This document shows positions 14,566-57,400 of a DNA stretch of 64,000 nt, piece after piece. The position numbers were made by a program, and so were the translations under genes. The stretch is from Symbiodinium natans. Taxonomy: Eukaryota > Sar > Dinophyceae > Suessiales > Symbiodiniaceae. Position 1 is the first letter of the stretch; every line of letters starts with the position of its first letter. The stretch lies in the NCBI GenBank assembly GCA_905221605.1, contig CAJNDS010002846.1, positions 127,501-191,500 of the forward strand. Direction: 5' to 3'. The notes beneath the pieces were generated by a model that saw only the letters and a program-made list of their open reading frames with translations, was not told where the DNA came from and did not search any database.

Positions 14566-14730
14566 CCACCGCAAACCCACAGCATTGCCGCATCATCTGC
14601 ATTCTGAGCTTCCACGTCTAGATGCTTGTCCCATTGCAGCTTGAGGATAGGCACCCGTGCCGACCAAACTTCCTTTGATGAACAGGGCAAGTGAGCAAGG
14701 GCAGAGGGACGGGACAGAGCATGTAGTTTG

Positions 14731-14825
14731 GCATGTTCCCCCTTATACTAGCAGTCCTTAATCGGGATCAGAACAGGGGTACCAGAACCCCGATTAAGGA
14801 CTGTTAGTATGAGGGGGAACCATCT
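14731..14825. mobile_element. TIR element, family A
   Basis: Almost pure inverted repeat. The left half ends TAGCAGTCCTTAATCGGG and the right half begins CCCCGATTAAGGACTG. Arms are about 36 bp with a loop of about 20 bp. Confidence 0.8.
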
Positions 14826-14993
14826 CAAAATGTCGTCAAAACCAGCACAGCAGAAGGACTAGAGAGCACACGAGGAACCATGACAGTCCACAAGGCTGTG
14901 AGAGGAGCGTGTCCCTTTCTCTACCATTGGAGGCTTATAAACAATAAGACGCACAAGACTTGCCAACCAACTATCCTGCAGATCTGAGTCATA

Positions 14994-35636: not shown

Positions 35637-36124
35637 TGGCGAAGGCCCAATTCAGCACGAAGACACCAAGGCCGGTCTTTGTGGATTCGAGGCGTCTCGG
35701 AGGCCGAGTTTCTGGGTTTAGGGTTTAGGGTGGAGCCTCCGCAGCGTAGTCCTCTTCACCCTTGACCTCCAATCCGATATTTGTGGCCCGGGAATCAAAA
35801 TGAGTCGGTTTCGGGGTTCAGGGGCTGAGTCCTACCCTCTTCTGAGCCCTAGAACCTCCAGTTCTTCCACAATAAGGTGTCTCATTTGGTGTCACTCAGG
35901 GGGACCCTAAACCCTAAACCCTAAACCCTAACCCCTGGGCCCTGGTTGGGCAACTTCCCTGTGTTGGTAGCTGCTGGTTGAGGACCCCAGGGGCGGTACT
36001 AAGGTCTTTGTTGAGGACCGATGAGCACCCAACCAGCCGACTCAGGGGGGCCAACTGGGGGCGACAGTACCGGTTTGCGCCTGGCGCCACGCTCCTTCGC
36101 AGATCTTTCTACCTTTGGCGCCGC

Positions 36125-37680
36125 GCCCTCCATTGCAGAGCAATCCTCTGCCCTTTTTTTTTTTTTCCCCCCGACGCGGCCTCCATTGCAGAGCCATCCT
36201 CTGCGGGTCCTTCTACCGCTGGCGCCGCCCCACTCCATTGCAGAGCCATCCTCTGCGGGTCCTTCTGCTATTGCAGAGCCATCCTCTGCGGGTCCTTCTG
36301 CCATTGCAGAGCCATCCTCTGCGGTTCTTCTTTTTGTTTGGCTGACGCGGCCTGCGTTGCAGAGCCATCCTCTGCGGTTTTTGTTTTTTTTTACGTTTGG
36401 CGCCCCCGCAGGAGCTATCCTCTGCGGGTCCTTCTGCTATTGCAGAGCCATCCTCTGCGGGTCCTTCTGCCATTGCAGAGCCATCCTCTGCGTTTTTTTT
36501 TTGTGCTGACTCTCAGCGGATTTGTTTTGCCGACGCGGCCTCCATTGCAGAGCCATCCTCTGCGGGTCCTTCGACCGCTGGCGCCGCCACACTCCATTGC
36601 AGAGCCATCCTCTGCGGGTCCTTCTGCCAACGCAGAGCCATCCTCTGCGGGTTTTTTTTTTTGCTGACTCTCAGCGGTTTTTTTTGCCGACGCGGCCTCC
36701 ATTGCAGAGCCATCCTCTGCGGGTCCTTCTACCGCTGGCGCCGCCCCACTCCATTGCAGAGCCATCCTCTGCGGGTCCTTCTGCCATTGCAGAGCCATCC
36801 TCTGCGGTTTTTTTTGCTGACTCTCAGCGGATTTTTTTTTTTTGCCGACGCGGCCTCCATTGCAGAGCCATCCTCTGCGGGTCCTTCTACCGCTGGCGCC
36901 GCCCCACTCCATTGCAGAGCCATCCTCTGCGGGTCCTTCTTCCATTGCAGAGCCAGCCTCTGCGGTTTTTTTTTGCTGACTCTCAGCGGTTTTTTTTTGC
37001 CGACGCGGCCTCCATTGCAGAGCCATCCTCTGCGGGTCCTTCTACAGCTGGCGCCGCCCCACTACATTGCAGAGCCATCCTCTGCGGGTCCTTCTGCCAT
37101 TGCAGAGCCATCCTCTGCGTTTTTTTTTTGTTTTTTTGCTGACTCTCAGCGGTTTTTTTTGCCGACGCGGCCTCCATTGCAGAGCCATCCTCTGCGGGTC
37201 CTTCGACCGCTGGCGCCGCCCCACTACATTGCAGAGCCATCCTCTGCGGGTCCTTCTGCCATTGCAGAGCCATCCTCTGCGGTTTTTTTTTTTGCTGACT
37301 CTCAGCGGATTTGTTTTTTTTGCCGACGCGGCCTCCATTGCAGAGCCATCCTCTGCGGGTCCTTCTACCGCTGGCGCCGCCCCACTACATTGCAGAGCCA
37401 TCCTCTGCGGGTCCTTCTGCCATTGCAGAGCCATCCTCTGCGTTTTTTTTTTTTGCTGACTCTCAGCGGTTTTTTTTTGCCGACGCGGCCTCCATTGCAG
37501 AGCCATCCTCTGCGGGTCCTTCGACCGCTGGCGCCGCCCCACTCCATTGCAGAGCCATCCTCTGCGGGTCTTTCTGCCATTGCAGAGCCATCCTCTGCGG
37601 GTCTTCTACCTTTGGCGCTGCCCCGCTCCATTGCAGAGCCATCCTCTGCGGTTTTTTCTACCTTTGCCGCGGACCTTGTT
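36125..37680 (+). repeat. tandem array of perfect mini-hairpins with T-tract spacers
   Basis: About 30 copies of GCAGAGCCATCCTCTGC (6-bp perfect stem, 5-base loop) organised in about eight higher-order units of 155-160 bp. A typical unit reads: T8-12, GCCGACGCGGC (4-bp stem), hairpin, GGGTCCTTCTACCGC, TGGCGCC, hairpin, GGGTCCTTCTGCCATT, hairpin, T8-12, GCTGACTCTCAGC (5-bp stem). Frames through it, up to 431 codons on plus and 203 on minus, are open only because the unit lacks stops. T-tract lengths vary by one or two bases between units, so no frame is maintained. It resembles neither a CRISPR array (unequal spacing, internal symmetry, no unique spacers) nor a known coding repeat. Confidence 0.9.
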
Positions 37681-37689
37681 TTTGTTTCT

Positions 37690-38930
37690 TAAAAAGCCCC
37701 CCTCTCTCTCTCTCTTTTCGTTTTTTTGCGGTTTGATCCTTAAGCTTTCGGGCCGGAGGTGATACCGCTTTTTTCTGACCGGACTCTGTCCTGGTCGCCT
37801 TCCACTCCACTCCACTCCACCCTAAACCCTAAACCCTAAACCACCCAAAACAAAAAATCCAACTCGTGCCTCCGGAAGCGCCCTGAGATTTACTTTATCA
37901 AATTACGCCGCGTGCACACACAAAGCCATCCAAGCAAGCGTCGCTTTGTCTGCGAACTTCCTGACTCATACATACACATACAGAAATATTGGCATTTGCC
38001 TCTACTTTCATTGAGTCATATGGGGTTTCAGAAACTAGGAGTACCCTTTTTCAGGGTCCCTTTTAAGGGGATTCTATTCGATTTGGGGTGTAAAAGGGGT
38101 AACACCTATAATCGAGCATCCAGAATGTGTAATCTACAATCCAAAGGCTATAGCCTGTCATCTATAATCTGGAACGTAATATGCAATACATGATTCAATG
38201 TGCGATGTTAATTTCCAGGATGTAGAGCATGTAGTACAAGGAACCGTACATAAAAATTAGAACAGTGTGCACATTTCAGTTTATATAGCATAGTTTATTC
38301 TATGGTGCATATTATAGAGTGCATTACTAGATGTGTGAAAAGTAGCATGTATACAAGGATGTGGATATGTATATGTATGTATGGGTATTTCCCAAAATAG
38401 GGGTTGAACATTGTAAAGAGGGAGCAAGCTAAGGACGAGATACTTTGCTTGATGGTTTAAAGGGTATGTACATTATACATGTATGCGAACCTTTTATTAG
38501 CTTTTATATATGAGAAAGGGTCTACTTACTTAGACTGACTTTGGGTGTTAACATCATTACATAGTCAGGGCGTACGCTTGGTAGCTACTTAAAATTCAGG
38601 CTCCGGTCTTCCCTTGAATGCTACGATCCGATGCTGCTGGCTAACGCCTAGGGTTTTTCAGGATTTCATGCCTTTTGGGCGTATGGCTAAACGGCTAAAG
38701 GCAAATGGGAACTGTGGGGCCCAAGATCTCGTGGTTTACGCTTGCAGCCTTTGCGCCACTGACAGGTCACACTGTGGACAGTTCAGGCGAGGCTTCACAA
38801 GGAGTTGTTAAAGTTTTAGTGCCCATGGTCTGCTACTCAAAAGCAGCAACCCTAAACCCTAAACCCTGTTTTGCTTTATGGCTCCTAAACCCTAAACTGG
38901 CAACGAGCTTGCATTGGGGCGCTTGCCGTC
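37690..38930. other. no gene recognised; AT-rich stretch
   Basis: (CT)n at 37700-37716, CACTC repeats and three heptamers at 37803-37843, a family-B left end at 38022, then AT-rich unique DNA 38100-38560 without any open frame of note. Short heptamer runs at 38850-38870 and 38884-38898. Confidence 0.5.
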
Positions 38931-39643
38931 TCACAGCAAGGACTTGGCGCAAGCGGCTGAGAATCCAATGGTCGCCTGCAGCTTCAAGCCAGCAGTCGCA
39001 GCTTGGAGGCTCATGCGTACTTATAACCCCACTTAAAGTCCTCTTACAACTTACCTAGGTGACTTAGGGGGATAAATGCAGTTTCAATTGGGTTTGTACG
39101 TACCCATGAACCTCCAAGTAGCATTGAGGGTTTTCCAGGTCTGACGTAGGGCTTGAGGTTTGAGTGTGGGATTCTGGGGTCCGGCTTGTTCTTCGCTCCC
39201 GCGTAGCTGGACAAACCGCCCTGCAGAGATTTCGGCGACTGGGGTTAACTCAAGGATAGTTTTGTTCAAAGGGGGGGCGTAGGGGTTTGGGTGTAGGGTT
39301 CAGGGTGTAAATTACAAACCCTCCACCCCGAAGCTGATTCTTCACCTTGCAGCTGAGGTGCTCCCATGGCTCCTCCCGCCAGTATGTAGCCGGTGATGCT
39401 GAAGGCTGCCAGCCGTGTCCTGGAAAGCCCCCAACATCGCCACACTTCTTCAGGGGTAACCACGGGGTGTAGAGCTTAGGGGGGCGTTGCAGCCTAGTTG
39501 CTGAGTACCGTACATAGGCCAGAAAAGGTTACCCTTTCAATTAGGGTAGGAGTATATAATACCTATTCCAAAAGGTTAAGGCTAAGGCTAGGGGTAACCT
39601 ACTCAGCAACTAAGACTAAGACAATCTTCGACGGAGTCCTGGC
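38931..39643 (-). CDS. four-exon partial gene with two TIR-element introns
   Basis: Exons on minus: 39603-39643, 39346-39493, 39112-39238, 38931-39001. Junctions are GCTGA/GTAGGT, CAAG/GTGAAG and TGGAG/GTTCAT donors with ACTAG, CCCCAG and CTCCAAG acceptors. The lengths keep one frame through all three introns (109, 107 and 110 bp) to a TGA. Landmarks: RPPKLYTPWLPLKKCGDVGG, FPGHGWQPSASPATYWREE, SLQGGLSSYAGAKNKPDPR, PYVRPGKPSMLLG, and the C-terminus AGLKLQATIGFSAACAKSLL. The outer introns coincide with family-G and family-C TIR elements. A rival frame (FSITGYILAGGAMGAPQLQ and onward) also threads the last two introns, so frame choice is a judgement. No family recognised. Confidence 0.45.
39002..39119. 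mobile_element. TIR element, family C, coincides with an intron
   Basis: Ends CTTGGAGGCTCATGCGTAC and GTACCCATGAACCTCCAAG are inverted copies. On the minus strand they give a GT donor at 39111-39110 and an AG acceptor at 39003-39002. Confidence 0.8.
39495..39612. mobile_element. TIR element, family G, coincides with an intron
   Basis: Perfect 13-bp ends TAGTTGCTGAGTA / TACTCAGCAACTA. The minus strand gives GTAGGT next to the upper end. Confidence 0.8.
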
Positions 39644-39967
39644 CTAGATCGACAGTCAAGCCCGACTCATGATGCCGAACCGCGGGACTCACGTGTTTGA
39701 AAACCAGCCAAGCGGAGCAATGCCCAAAAGCCAGCACAGGACATTTTTTGAACCGGGAACCTGCTTTCAGAAACCTAAACGCCTGACCTGTAATATTAAA
39801 CCCTAAACACCTGACCTGCAACCGGAACTTCACTCTTCACCCTAACCATGAGACCGAGAGTCACGTCCAGGACCAGGCCGAAAAGGCCTCCTCAGGGTTG
39901 ATATTGGCTTGGCTTTGATTTAAGTGGCTGCAGCGGTTTGCGGGATTGATCTTGGGCCAATCTTGGG

Positions 39968-40040
39968 AGGTTCCCCCTTATACTAGCAGTCCTTAATAGG
40001 GATTATGATAGAGGGTACCATAAGCGCACTCTGAGCGTTA
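39968..40040. mobile_element. family-A element, left end only
   Basis: GTTCCCCCTTATACTAGCAG then TCCTTAATAGGGATTATGAT. No matching right end within 150 bp. Confidence 0.5.
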
Positions 40041-49990: not shown

Positions 49991-51311
49991 TCATCCACAC
50001 GCACATATCGCCGGAGCATAAACTCGCGAGCGGGCTCCCGTATCATATGAATGGATAAAGTCAAGGATGGTTCTTGAAACTCTCTGAGAAATACAAAAAT
50101 GTCCCAAGGGCCGAGCACAAGCTTCTATCTGCCTCATCGCGCACTCTCCGTGCCTGATACCCGCAAAGCACTCTCCCAGACTTGAGATGTGGAGCGATCT
50201 GGAAAGCTGTTCCTCAACACTACAGATGTTCACATAGAGAACTCATGTGGGATTGCCCTTCAACAAAATTGGAAACTGGAAGGGCCTAAGACGAAGAACT
50301 AGCAAGCATCGCTCTTAGCTAGCACTCTGGCGCAAGGCCCCCTAATCATCCGATTACGAATCGCATGTGGTCTTGTCGCCAATTTCTTGCGCCAAGTGCT
50401 GGAACTTCAATTTTCGCCAGGATTTACTTATCGGACGACACTTCAGATTCCGGTGAAGGAACAAACTGAGTAGACCTCCACAGCTCGTGCTGCATGTCCC
50501 AAACTGCTTTGCCTGGAGGGTCGAGGTGTCTGTCGGCAAGGTGTAACAGCACGAAGCCCTGAAAGCCACCGGCACTTGCTGCACAAAAAACATACGCTGT
50601 AGCCTCTGCCTCTGGCACTTGAACTGCATCTACTCTCTGGGTCTTCGTGTGCCCTGGACTCTTTTTTCCGAAACAAAAACAGAAGCGCCCGGCTGTACCT
50701 AAGACGATCCTTAGCCGCGCGAGGAGAAGCTAAACTAGAGGCGTCTGGCTTTGGAATCCCCGACCCTGCAGTGAGTGGAGCCCAACTGACAAATCCAACC
50801 AGGCCAATCTCGGGGTCGGAATAGTTGCTAATCGTATTCCCTTGTAGTCCCTTTGAAATTATAGTATTCCCTTGTGGTCGCTTGTTATTGTACTATAATC
50901 ACCCCCCCCCCCCCCCCCCCCCCCTACTCTAATTATTGAGGCCCCGACATTAGGCCAGCAGAATTCGAGCTCACCCTGCTCAACTGCTCATCTAGGGTTT
51001 AGGTTTAGGGTTTAGGGTCTAGAAACAAGGTAACACTGTTGCAAGACTTACTTGTCCAGGGGGAATTAGGTGAACCTTTGGGAATATAAGGGGATTACCT
51101 TGCCCCAAAAAAGTTTAAGCTTTGGGAAGACAAGGGGGATTATCTTATACCCCAAAAAGGCTACTGGTTGCCTACTCTACTACTGGGAAGAAGTTTTTTT
51201 CCTTACCATATCGCAGACAGGCACATCAGGACCTGTGTATGTGGGGTGCGCCACGCCCTCGACCAGGCTGCCAGCGTTGACATCCACAACTTGTCGGGTA
51301 TTTTGGTACCC
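49991..51311 (-). CDS. three-exon 3' gene end, unknown protein
   Basis: Exon 51207-51311 follows a TTTAG acceptor formed by a heptamer, encodes TRQVVDVNAGSLVEGVAHPT and YTGPDVPVCDM, and ends at GATATG/GTAAGG (phase 0). Exon 50428-50636 resumes in phase 0 after CCCAG, encodes EAEATAYVFCAASAGGFQGF and VLLHLADRHLDPPGKAVW, and ends at GATAA/GTAAAT (phase 2). Exon 49991-50219 resumes after CATCTGTAG with VEEQLSRSLHISSLGECF and ends RVYAPAICACG before TGA. The introns (570 and 208 bp) are phase-consistent, and the first contains a family-E element. No domain recognised. Confidence 0.47.
50811..50955. mobile_element. TIR element, family E, inside an intron
   Basis: GGGGTCGGAATAGTTGCTAA at the left, AATTATTGAGGCCCCGAC at the right, with a 23-base C run inside. 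Inverted relative to 23.34 kb. Confidence 0.7.
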
Positions 51312-55992: not shown

Positions 55993-56201
55993 TGGGATGT
56001 TCGCCCTTATACTAAGAGGCATACGAACAGCCCCGCACAGGGATGATATTTAGGGGGGGGGGGGAGTGCTAGAATCCCGATTAAGGACTGGTAGTATAAG
56101 TGGGAACACCCCTTATACTAACAGTCCTTAAATAGGGATTATCATTCGGGGGGTACTATAATCCCGAGAAAGGACTGTTAGTCTAAGTGGGAACATCCCA
56201 A
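55993..56201. mobile_element. two adjacent family-A TIR elements
   Basis: GGGATGTTCGCCCTTATACT at 55993 and three further ends of the same family (GACTGGTAGTATAAGTGGGA, CACCCCTTATACTAACAGTC, GACTGTTAGTCTAAGTGGGA) form two copies joined end to end near 56106. Confidence 0.7.
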
Positions 56202-56204
56202 CTT

Positions 56205-57400
56205 GCAGCTCTTCACAGTTCTTGTTGTGTCCATGGGTAATTTAAAGAGGCCCTGGATCCTCTTGAGGGCCCCCCTCCCCCCCTCCCCCCTCCCGAGAAC
56301 CGACCATGCGGCTGCATGGGCTAAGCTCTCTGCACATGGGAGTGGGATATTGGCTCTGAAGCTTTGGGATTTGATTTTTGGCGACTTAAGGTTTGCGGCT
56401 GCAGCTTCAGAAGGAACTCCAAGAAGCTCTAGTGGAAAGTCGGCTCGCTGTTCAAAAACTCCTGGCACGACTGATACCCTTTGTAGAGGAAGGTGGTCGG
56501 GGGCATAGGGCGACGCGACAAGCCACAGGGCTCAAGAACGATGCAACCTGTGGGCAGGATTTGTAAGTGCAGATCCTTGGATTGCATTTTAGACTCCTTG
56601 GACCAGTCTCCCATATAACCTGGCACTAGTTTTGCGTGAGCAGCAAGTTGCTGGTAGCGACTCTTCCTTCTGAGCATGCGCCCCATGGGCTGCCATGTTC
56701 TGCATGATTCAGTCTAGCATTTCCAAGCAAAGCAGGAGGTCAACAGTACCCTGTGGTGCTAAAGTGAACCGAAGACAGCCTTAAGGCAAGGCTTCGGAAG
56801 GGAAAAGTGGACTTAAGGGATGACAGGAAGGGCCTACACCCCTGCATTCTCAGGTTGACTAAGGTCCCCGCAGGGCAGTCGGATCAGTTCGTCTCCCTCT
56901 TCATACTCGACGAGACCTGGGGTTAGGGTCCTGGGTTGAGGTTGCCAGCTACGGGTAACGACCCAGGGTTTGAGACCAAATGCAAGTAGGATTCCCATTC
57001 AGCTGCAAACTGGGGGAAGTTGGACAGGGTTGGTCTAAAGGTTTAAGTTCCTTTGGTACCCGGAACATGACGGATGAAGTTGCCCACACATGAGATCAAC
57101 CGCATATTGCAGAGAATACAGCCCTGCGATGGGGATCCGCTAAGCTCCCACAGAGTGCTAGACAACGTCGGCATGGTGTCCCCTCGGATGGCCAACTGTG
57201 AGCCCGACAAATCTCGCACTCAACCAAGTCCTTGTGGCCTGGATTGGTATGAGGCCAGCTTCCCAAGATCTTGTGCTCTCTTTAGGGGTGCGTGGGGAGA
57301 AGGCGGGCGCTTCGGCTTCTGGCTTGGGCTGTTGATGCGGTTCAGGCACCAAGATGCCTGAGACTTCGATCAGTTTGAACTGACCAACTCCAAGAAACTG
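56205..57400. other. no supported gene
   Basis: Both strands are open at 56178-56508. The remainder has only short frames. Nothing diagnostic. Confidence 0.4.

Follow-up and report, generated by a model that had tools for sequence, protein, structure and literature searches.

It is very probable that the two short inverted-repeat elements at 38931-39643 of the window (the whole 64-kb stretch of Symbiodinium natans DNA analysed here) are old and mutually unrelated MITEs lying in non-coding DNA, that their GT and AG dinucleotides are not used as splice sites, and that a sister subfamily of one of them, G2, works as an introner elsewhere in the genome. The sequence-only reading had taken both elements for introns of a single minus-strand gene. 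The idea that such elements behave as introns held in kind, for the close relative G2 at other loci, and is not supported for the copies in the window, where the frame is near chance level, the predicted protein has neither a second match in the genome nor a Pfam family and the G element has no target-site duplication. The features concerned are the following.

38931..39643, minus strand: four-exon model proposed earlier, 129 codons including the stop; reproduced, chance-like
39002..39118, no strand assigned: C-family MITE with TIRs CTTGGAGGTTCATGG; the duplication of the family is TA
39239..39345, minus strand: the proposed 'ordinary 107-bp intron', GTGAAG...CCCCAG, a frame-keeping GT...AG segment without independent support
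39493..39614, minus strand: G-family MITE, CCTAGTTGCTGAGTA...CAACTAAG on the plus strand
51047..51187, minus strand: G2-like copy of 141 bp with the duplication TCTT at 51043-51046 and 51188-51191, borders and duplication identified by eye

The four-exon frame in the window

Removal of 39494-39602, 39002-39111 and 39239-39345 does keep one frame of 129 codons, the last of which is a stop, exactly as had been claimed, the element borders (39493-39614 and 39002-39118) being somewhat wider than the intron borders of that model. The locus, however, admits 2,214 open threadings when the GT/AG pairs of the element ends are combined with one optional ordinary intron. Threadings of at least 129 codons were obtained in 68.5% of 200 dinucleotide shuffles in which the elements were kept; when the elements were placed on other sequence of the window as a real-sequence control, 53% of 113 placements gave them. 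The four-exon frame was rejected as gene evidence on these counts: the 129-codon model is not distinguishable from chance, and the existence of a gene at this locus is not supported.

A real lineage-specific gene with both elements as its introns is thus a very unlikely reading of the locus. Besides the working frame, what favours a gene here is a mild excess of the longest observed threading, of 247 codons, which was matched by 3% of the shuffles and 8% of the real-sequence controls (92nd-97th percentile), and the third intron, AAG/GTGAAG...CCCCAG/ (slashes mark splice borders), which is a fair donor-acceptor pair. Against it stand the abundance of alternative threadings and the 128-residue model protein, which at E up to 0.1 matches nothing in the genome but its own locus and at E up to 1 has no Pfam match. 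The G element also argues against this gene, since its proposed splice borders differ from those of the G2 mode: the proposed donor falls inside the TIR, and the duplication that supplies the donors of G2 is absent. The preferred reading, two MITEs in non-coding DNA, makes the locus an illustration of how easily TIR ends may pass for splice sites when a single locus is considered.

Scans of the 64-kb window with Rfam and for tRNAs gave no matches. Telomere-like heptamers are scattered across the whole window (280 exact copies of CCCTAAA and 177 of TTTAGGG), and related telomere-like heptamers occupy 5,202 bp of it. Self-matches reveal a tandem array at 36085-37675, its period roughly 160-170 bp, which is overlapped by a 448-codon frame without stops at 36346-37692.

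Families G and C in the genome

The presence of two TIR elements at the locus was confirmed, the arms of G by computation and both pairs by inspection of the sequence, and the genome-wide search proposed with the sequence-only reading showed both to be multicopy, with no clear accompanying excess of open frames. Genome-wide counts refer to the assembly of 759,417,921 bp (759 Mb) in 2,543 contigs. The end pattern of G has 613 matches at no more than 2 mismatches (control, 1) and that of C has 16,467 at no more than 1 mismatch, the reversed control of 2,317 not being independent because the C pattern is nearly its own mirror. Both families are short and carry TIRs and target duplications, as MITEs do. 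For G, exact 4-bp repeats flank 11 of 35 copies, with 0.26 expected from re-pairing; the window copy, which lies on the minus strand in the same orientation as the G2 introners, has no target-site duplication (flanks GCAG and ACTA). For C, the T and the A of a TA stand before the left end in 41 and 41 of 54 copies and after the right end in 42 and 36, so that the target duplication is TA. The flanks of the window copy (AG on the left, TA on the right) point to a duplication that has decayed. TA-duplicating MITEs include the Tc1/mariner-derived Stowaway, which family C resembles in its short length, its TIRs, the TA duplication and the thousands of ends, a likeness that does not imply the superfamily.

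The frame test for G started from 50 loci, of which 10 without clean ends were dropped, leaving 40 including the window copy. Frames spanning the element reached at least 80 codons in 19 (14.9 expected), at least 100 in 9 (8.6 expected) and at least 120 in 3 (4.25 expected). A frame excess for the family as a whole was therefore rejected, and as there is no clear excess of long spanning frames in this sample, G copies are not mostly introns.

The observation that the ends of family C contain a GT and an AG also proved correct, and both belong to the TIR consensus: the proposed donor GT is present in 36 of 41 rows and the acceptor AG in 39, so that they are to be expected wherever any C copy sits. 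After the proposed splice, spanning open frames were close to local controls in these 41 rows, which count the window copy, include three pairs that share or overlap one element, and exclude copies less than 320 bp from the locus end and exact duplicates. Frames of at least 60 codons were found in 26 rows (22.2 expected), of at least 80 in 13 (13.2 expected), of at least 100 in 8 (7.3 expected) and of at least 120 in 1 (2.05 expected). Family C was consequently rejected as an introner, there being no open-frame excess across the proposed junction. GT-AG splicing of a TA-duplicating element built in this way would be possible only with a gain of 9 nt: CTTGGAG/GTTCATGG...CCAAG/TA would leave TA plus CTTGGAG, which adds three codons net and is stop-free in every frame. 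That C is an introner of this kind we regard as extremely improbable. The conserved GT and AG would suit it, and codon-adding introners are described for Aureococcus in a figure legend (PMC9860276, Fig. 2F-G), but the frames of at least 100 codons do not rise above the local controls, and C ends were seen by eye at the borders of 0 of 13 kinesin gap sequences. The latter come from a census in which 98 exon matches were listed and 20 loci fetched, giving 14 exon gaps in 11 loci, 13 of which were inspected; some of these gaps may be coding insertions and not introns. Neither G nor G2 ends were found at the borders of the same 13 gaps.

The G2 subfamily and the probable gain of introns

An intron of a histone H3 gene (C1800:316092-316492, minus strand) is a G-related element of the sister subfamily that we call G2. 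Its structure is CAG/GAAG CTTAG...CAACTAAG/GAAG, or more fully CAG/GAAG CTTAGTAG...CAACTAAG/GAAGTC, and the spliced protein aligns to H3 without a gap across the junction (E 2e-51). Since the border can slide along the 4-bp repeat, the exact splice position had to be assigned; read as GA-AG, the intron agrees with the GC/GA-AG introns that PMC11453091 reports from Symbiodiniaceae. At the same locus GC-AG is, by eye, the best reading of the first intron, and the borders of the second do not clearly fit GT/GC/GA-AG. The genome has 33 matches to PF00125; apart from the H3 locus they include several histone-fold frames, about 110-440 residues long, and some of these occur with identical or near-identical scores in 4 to 9 places.

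The subfamily is homogeneous: of 1,560 first-look candidates the best 40 were scored, and apart from H3 itself all of them (39) show 88-92% identity over 92-102 bp. The 24 copies read comprise 20 in stretches of 901 bp, 3 in stretches of 311 bp (together 23 of the 39 scored relatives) and H3 itself. An exact 4-bp duplication is present in 14 of them, 13 with fixed borders: 10 of the 20 in the longer stretches, a copy whose left border is shifted by 3 bp (L121), L137, L138 and H3. G2 has the marks of an introner, namely similar elements at several genic sites with similarity that extends up to the putative splice borders. The genic cases are H3, C1753 and C113, supported by homology or Pfam, and C1147, supported by its open frame.

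In C1753 (stretch 73795-74695) the element stands as GTGC + 103 bp + GTGC, and the frame around it stays open through the junction for 264 codons; the protein has only sub-threshold Pfam matches. Two uninterrupted paralogues, C1024 and C1936, share 99% protein identity with it. At the DNA level C1024 is 98.3% identical, with 8 differences (0/1/7 at the three codon positions) and one gap only, whose 107 bp correspond exactly to the element plus one duplication, and C1936 is 98.0% identical with the same 107-bp gap. C2020 is the third paralogue without an interruption; its 437 aligned bases fall into several blocks and are 84.0% identical, with 73 differences (11/7/55) and a gap that is not clean. 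Relatives in the arrays of C1834 and C1191 are interrupted near query residues 50, 75 and 120. C1753 shares none of these interruptions, its only one being at residue 56, so it belongs among the intron-poor copies and has gained one intron.

This bears on whether the paralogues represent the state before the insertion. C1024 and C1936 might be processed retrocopies of the C1753 gene, made after it had acquired the G2 intron; according to a passage of PMC11453091, dinoflagellates show widespread retroposition, and both paralogues are uninterrupted. We consider this unlikely, because C1753, lacking the breaks of the arrays, appears itself to be an intron-poor copy to which one intron was added. 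The element is removed precisely under either reading, by insertion or by retrocopying.

Two further cases are C113 and C1147. For the C113 copy the duplication is GCAA and the surrounding protein carries RCC1 repeats (PF13540, E 1.1e-9); a match to PF25390 at residues 50-152 spans the junction at residue 130 (E 5.5e-6), but its 26 bits are sub-threshold against a cut-off of 150. For the C1147 copy the duplication is GTAC and the frame runs through the junction without a stop for 264 codons; the protein has no Pfam match, and the copy is taken as coding by the frame alone.

These four cases, H3, C1753, C113 and C1147, are precisely the copies among the 14 with exact duplications whose duplication starts with GT, GC or GA. 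The remaining 10 have spanning frames of 23-86 codons, including L137, whose frame covers 67 of the 68 codons fetched, though its duplication TCAA gives no donor. L124 and L131, two copies whose GT duplications are imperfect, do not lie in long frames, and adding them weakens the link between donor and frame, a rule noticed post hoc (p = 0.12 relative to the other copies, p = 0.049 relative to random positions). The G2-like copy of the window at 51047-51187 stands at a site that starts with TC and is without a usable donor.

The case for G2 thus consists of its anatomy, its duplications, the exact restoration of the H3 frame and a near-identical paralogue free of the intron, and on this basis its elements would be spliced out of the transcripts. 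In the mechanism we propose, G2 would insert with a 4-bp duplication; at an exonic site that starts with GT, GC or GA, the upstream copy of the site would become the donor and the terminal AG of the element the acceptor. Excision of the element together with one copy of the duplication would then restore the reading frame exactly, and exonic copies lacking a usable donor would presumably be eliminated by selection. Coding sequence is indeed recovered on removal of the element, as the gapless H3 alignment and the C1753 paralogue gap demonstrate. G2 may therefore be regarded as a clean case of intron gain, in which an element-free near-identical paralogue, exact frame restoration and a homogeneous family come together, and the family would permit a direct count of the insertion sites that yield usable introns.

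A more speculative thought, to which we give a low probability, is that G and G2 represent one MITE group caught between plain transposon and introner. G copies end in ...CAACTAGG in 11 of 12 aligned rows (the window copy among them) and G2 copies in ...TAAG in 19 of 21, a comparison in which the G rows were chosen by a pattern containing that end and the other strand of G also ends in CTAAG. A single-base change in the last bases of the element might place the AG exactly at the border of the target duplication. If this transition is true, insertions at GT/GC/GA sites would become removable without a change to the protein.

Relation to described introners

Introners of Symbiodinium microadriaticum have TIRs and 4-bp duplications, carry the 3' splice site in the element and obtain the 5' splice site from the duplication, according to the legend of Fig. 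2B of Gozashti et al. 2022 (PMC9860276). G2 agrees with this description in its TIRs, its 4-bp target duplication, a donor from the duplication and an element-borne acceptor AG, and may be the same family, as far as a comparison by description reaches. It is not a new kind of element, because TIR introners with 4-bp duplications and a 3' splice site have already been published there. Roy et al. 2023 (Curr Biol), as cited in PMC11453091, reported many introner families in five dinoflagellate genomes; these are intron-making elements as G2 appears to be, and G2 is possibly already among the published families. The full-text searches of the literature made here yielded no introner sequence with which G2 could be compared. 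Counts of introner elements have also been published for Symbiodiniaceae genes (PMC10522408) and within a comparative study that lists S. natans in its tables (PMC10666404).

The introner elements of Amoebophrya, as summarised in PMC7789003, have inverted repeats of 8-20 nt, direct repeats of 3-5 nt at the intron borders and non-canonical splice sites, all of which recall G2. The first and last two nucleotides of Amoebophrya introns are said in the same source to be without a clear signature, whereas the four G2 cases all fit GT/GC/GA-AG.

The dinoflagellate spliced leader has 301 matches genome-wide at no more than 1 mismatch, with none in the reversed control, which marks the genome as that of a dinoflagellate. 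A third MITE family, A, with ends TTGGGATGTTCCC, occurs in the window at 894-1014, 14727-14831, 39960-40023 and 56063-56212, and its 18-base inner motif has six window matches at no more than 2 mismatches where 0.003 would be expected. A member of this family also lies inside a 185-bp kinesin intron (L101), away from its ends.
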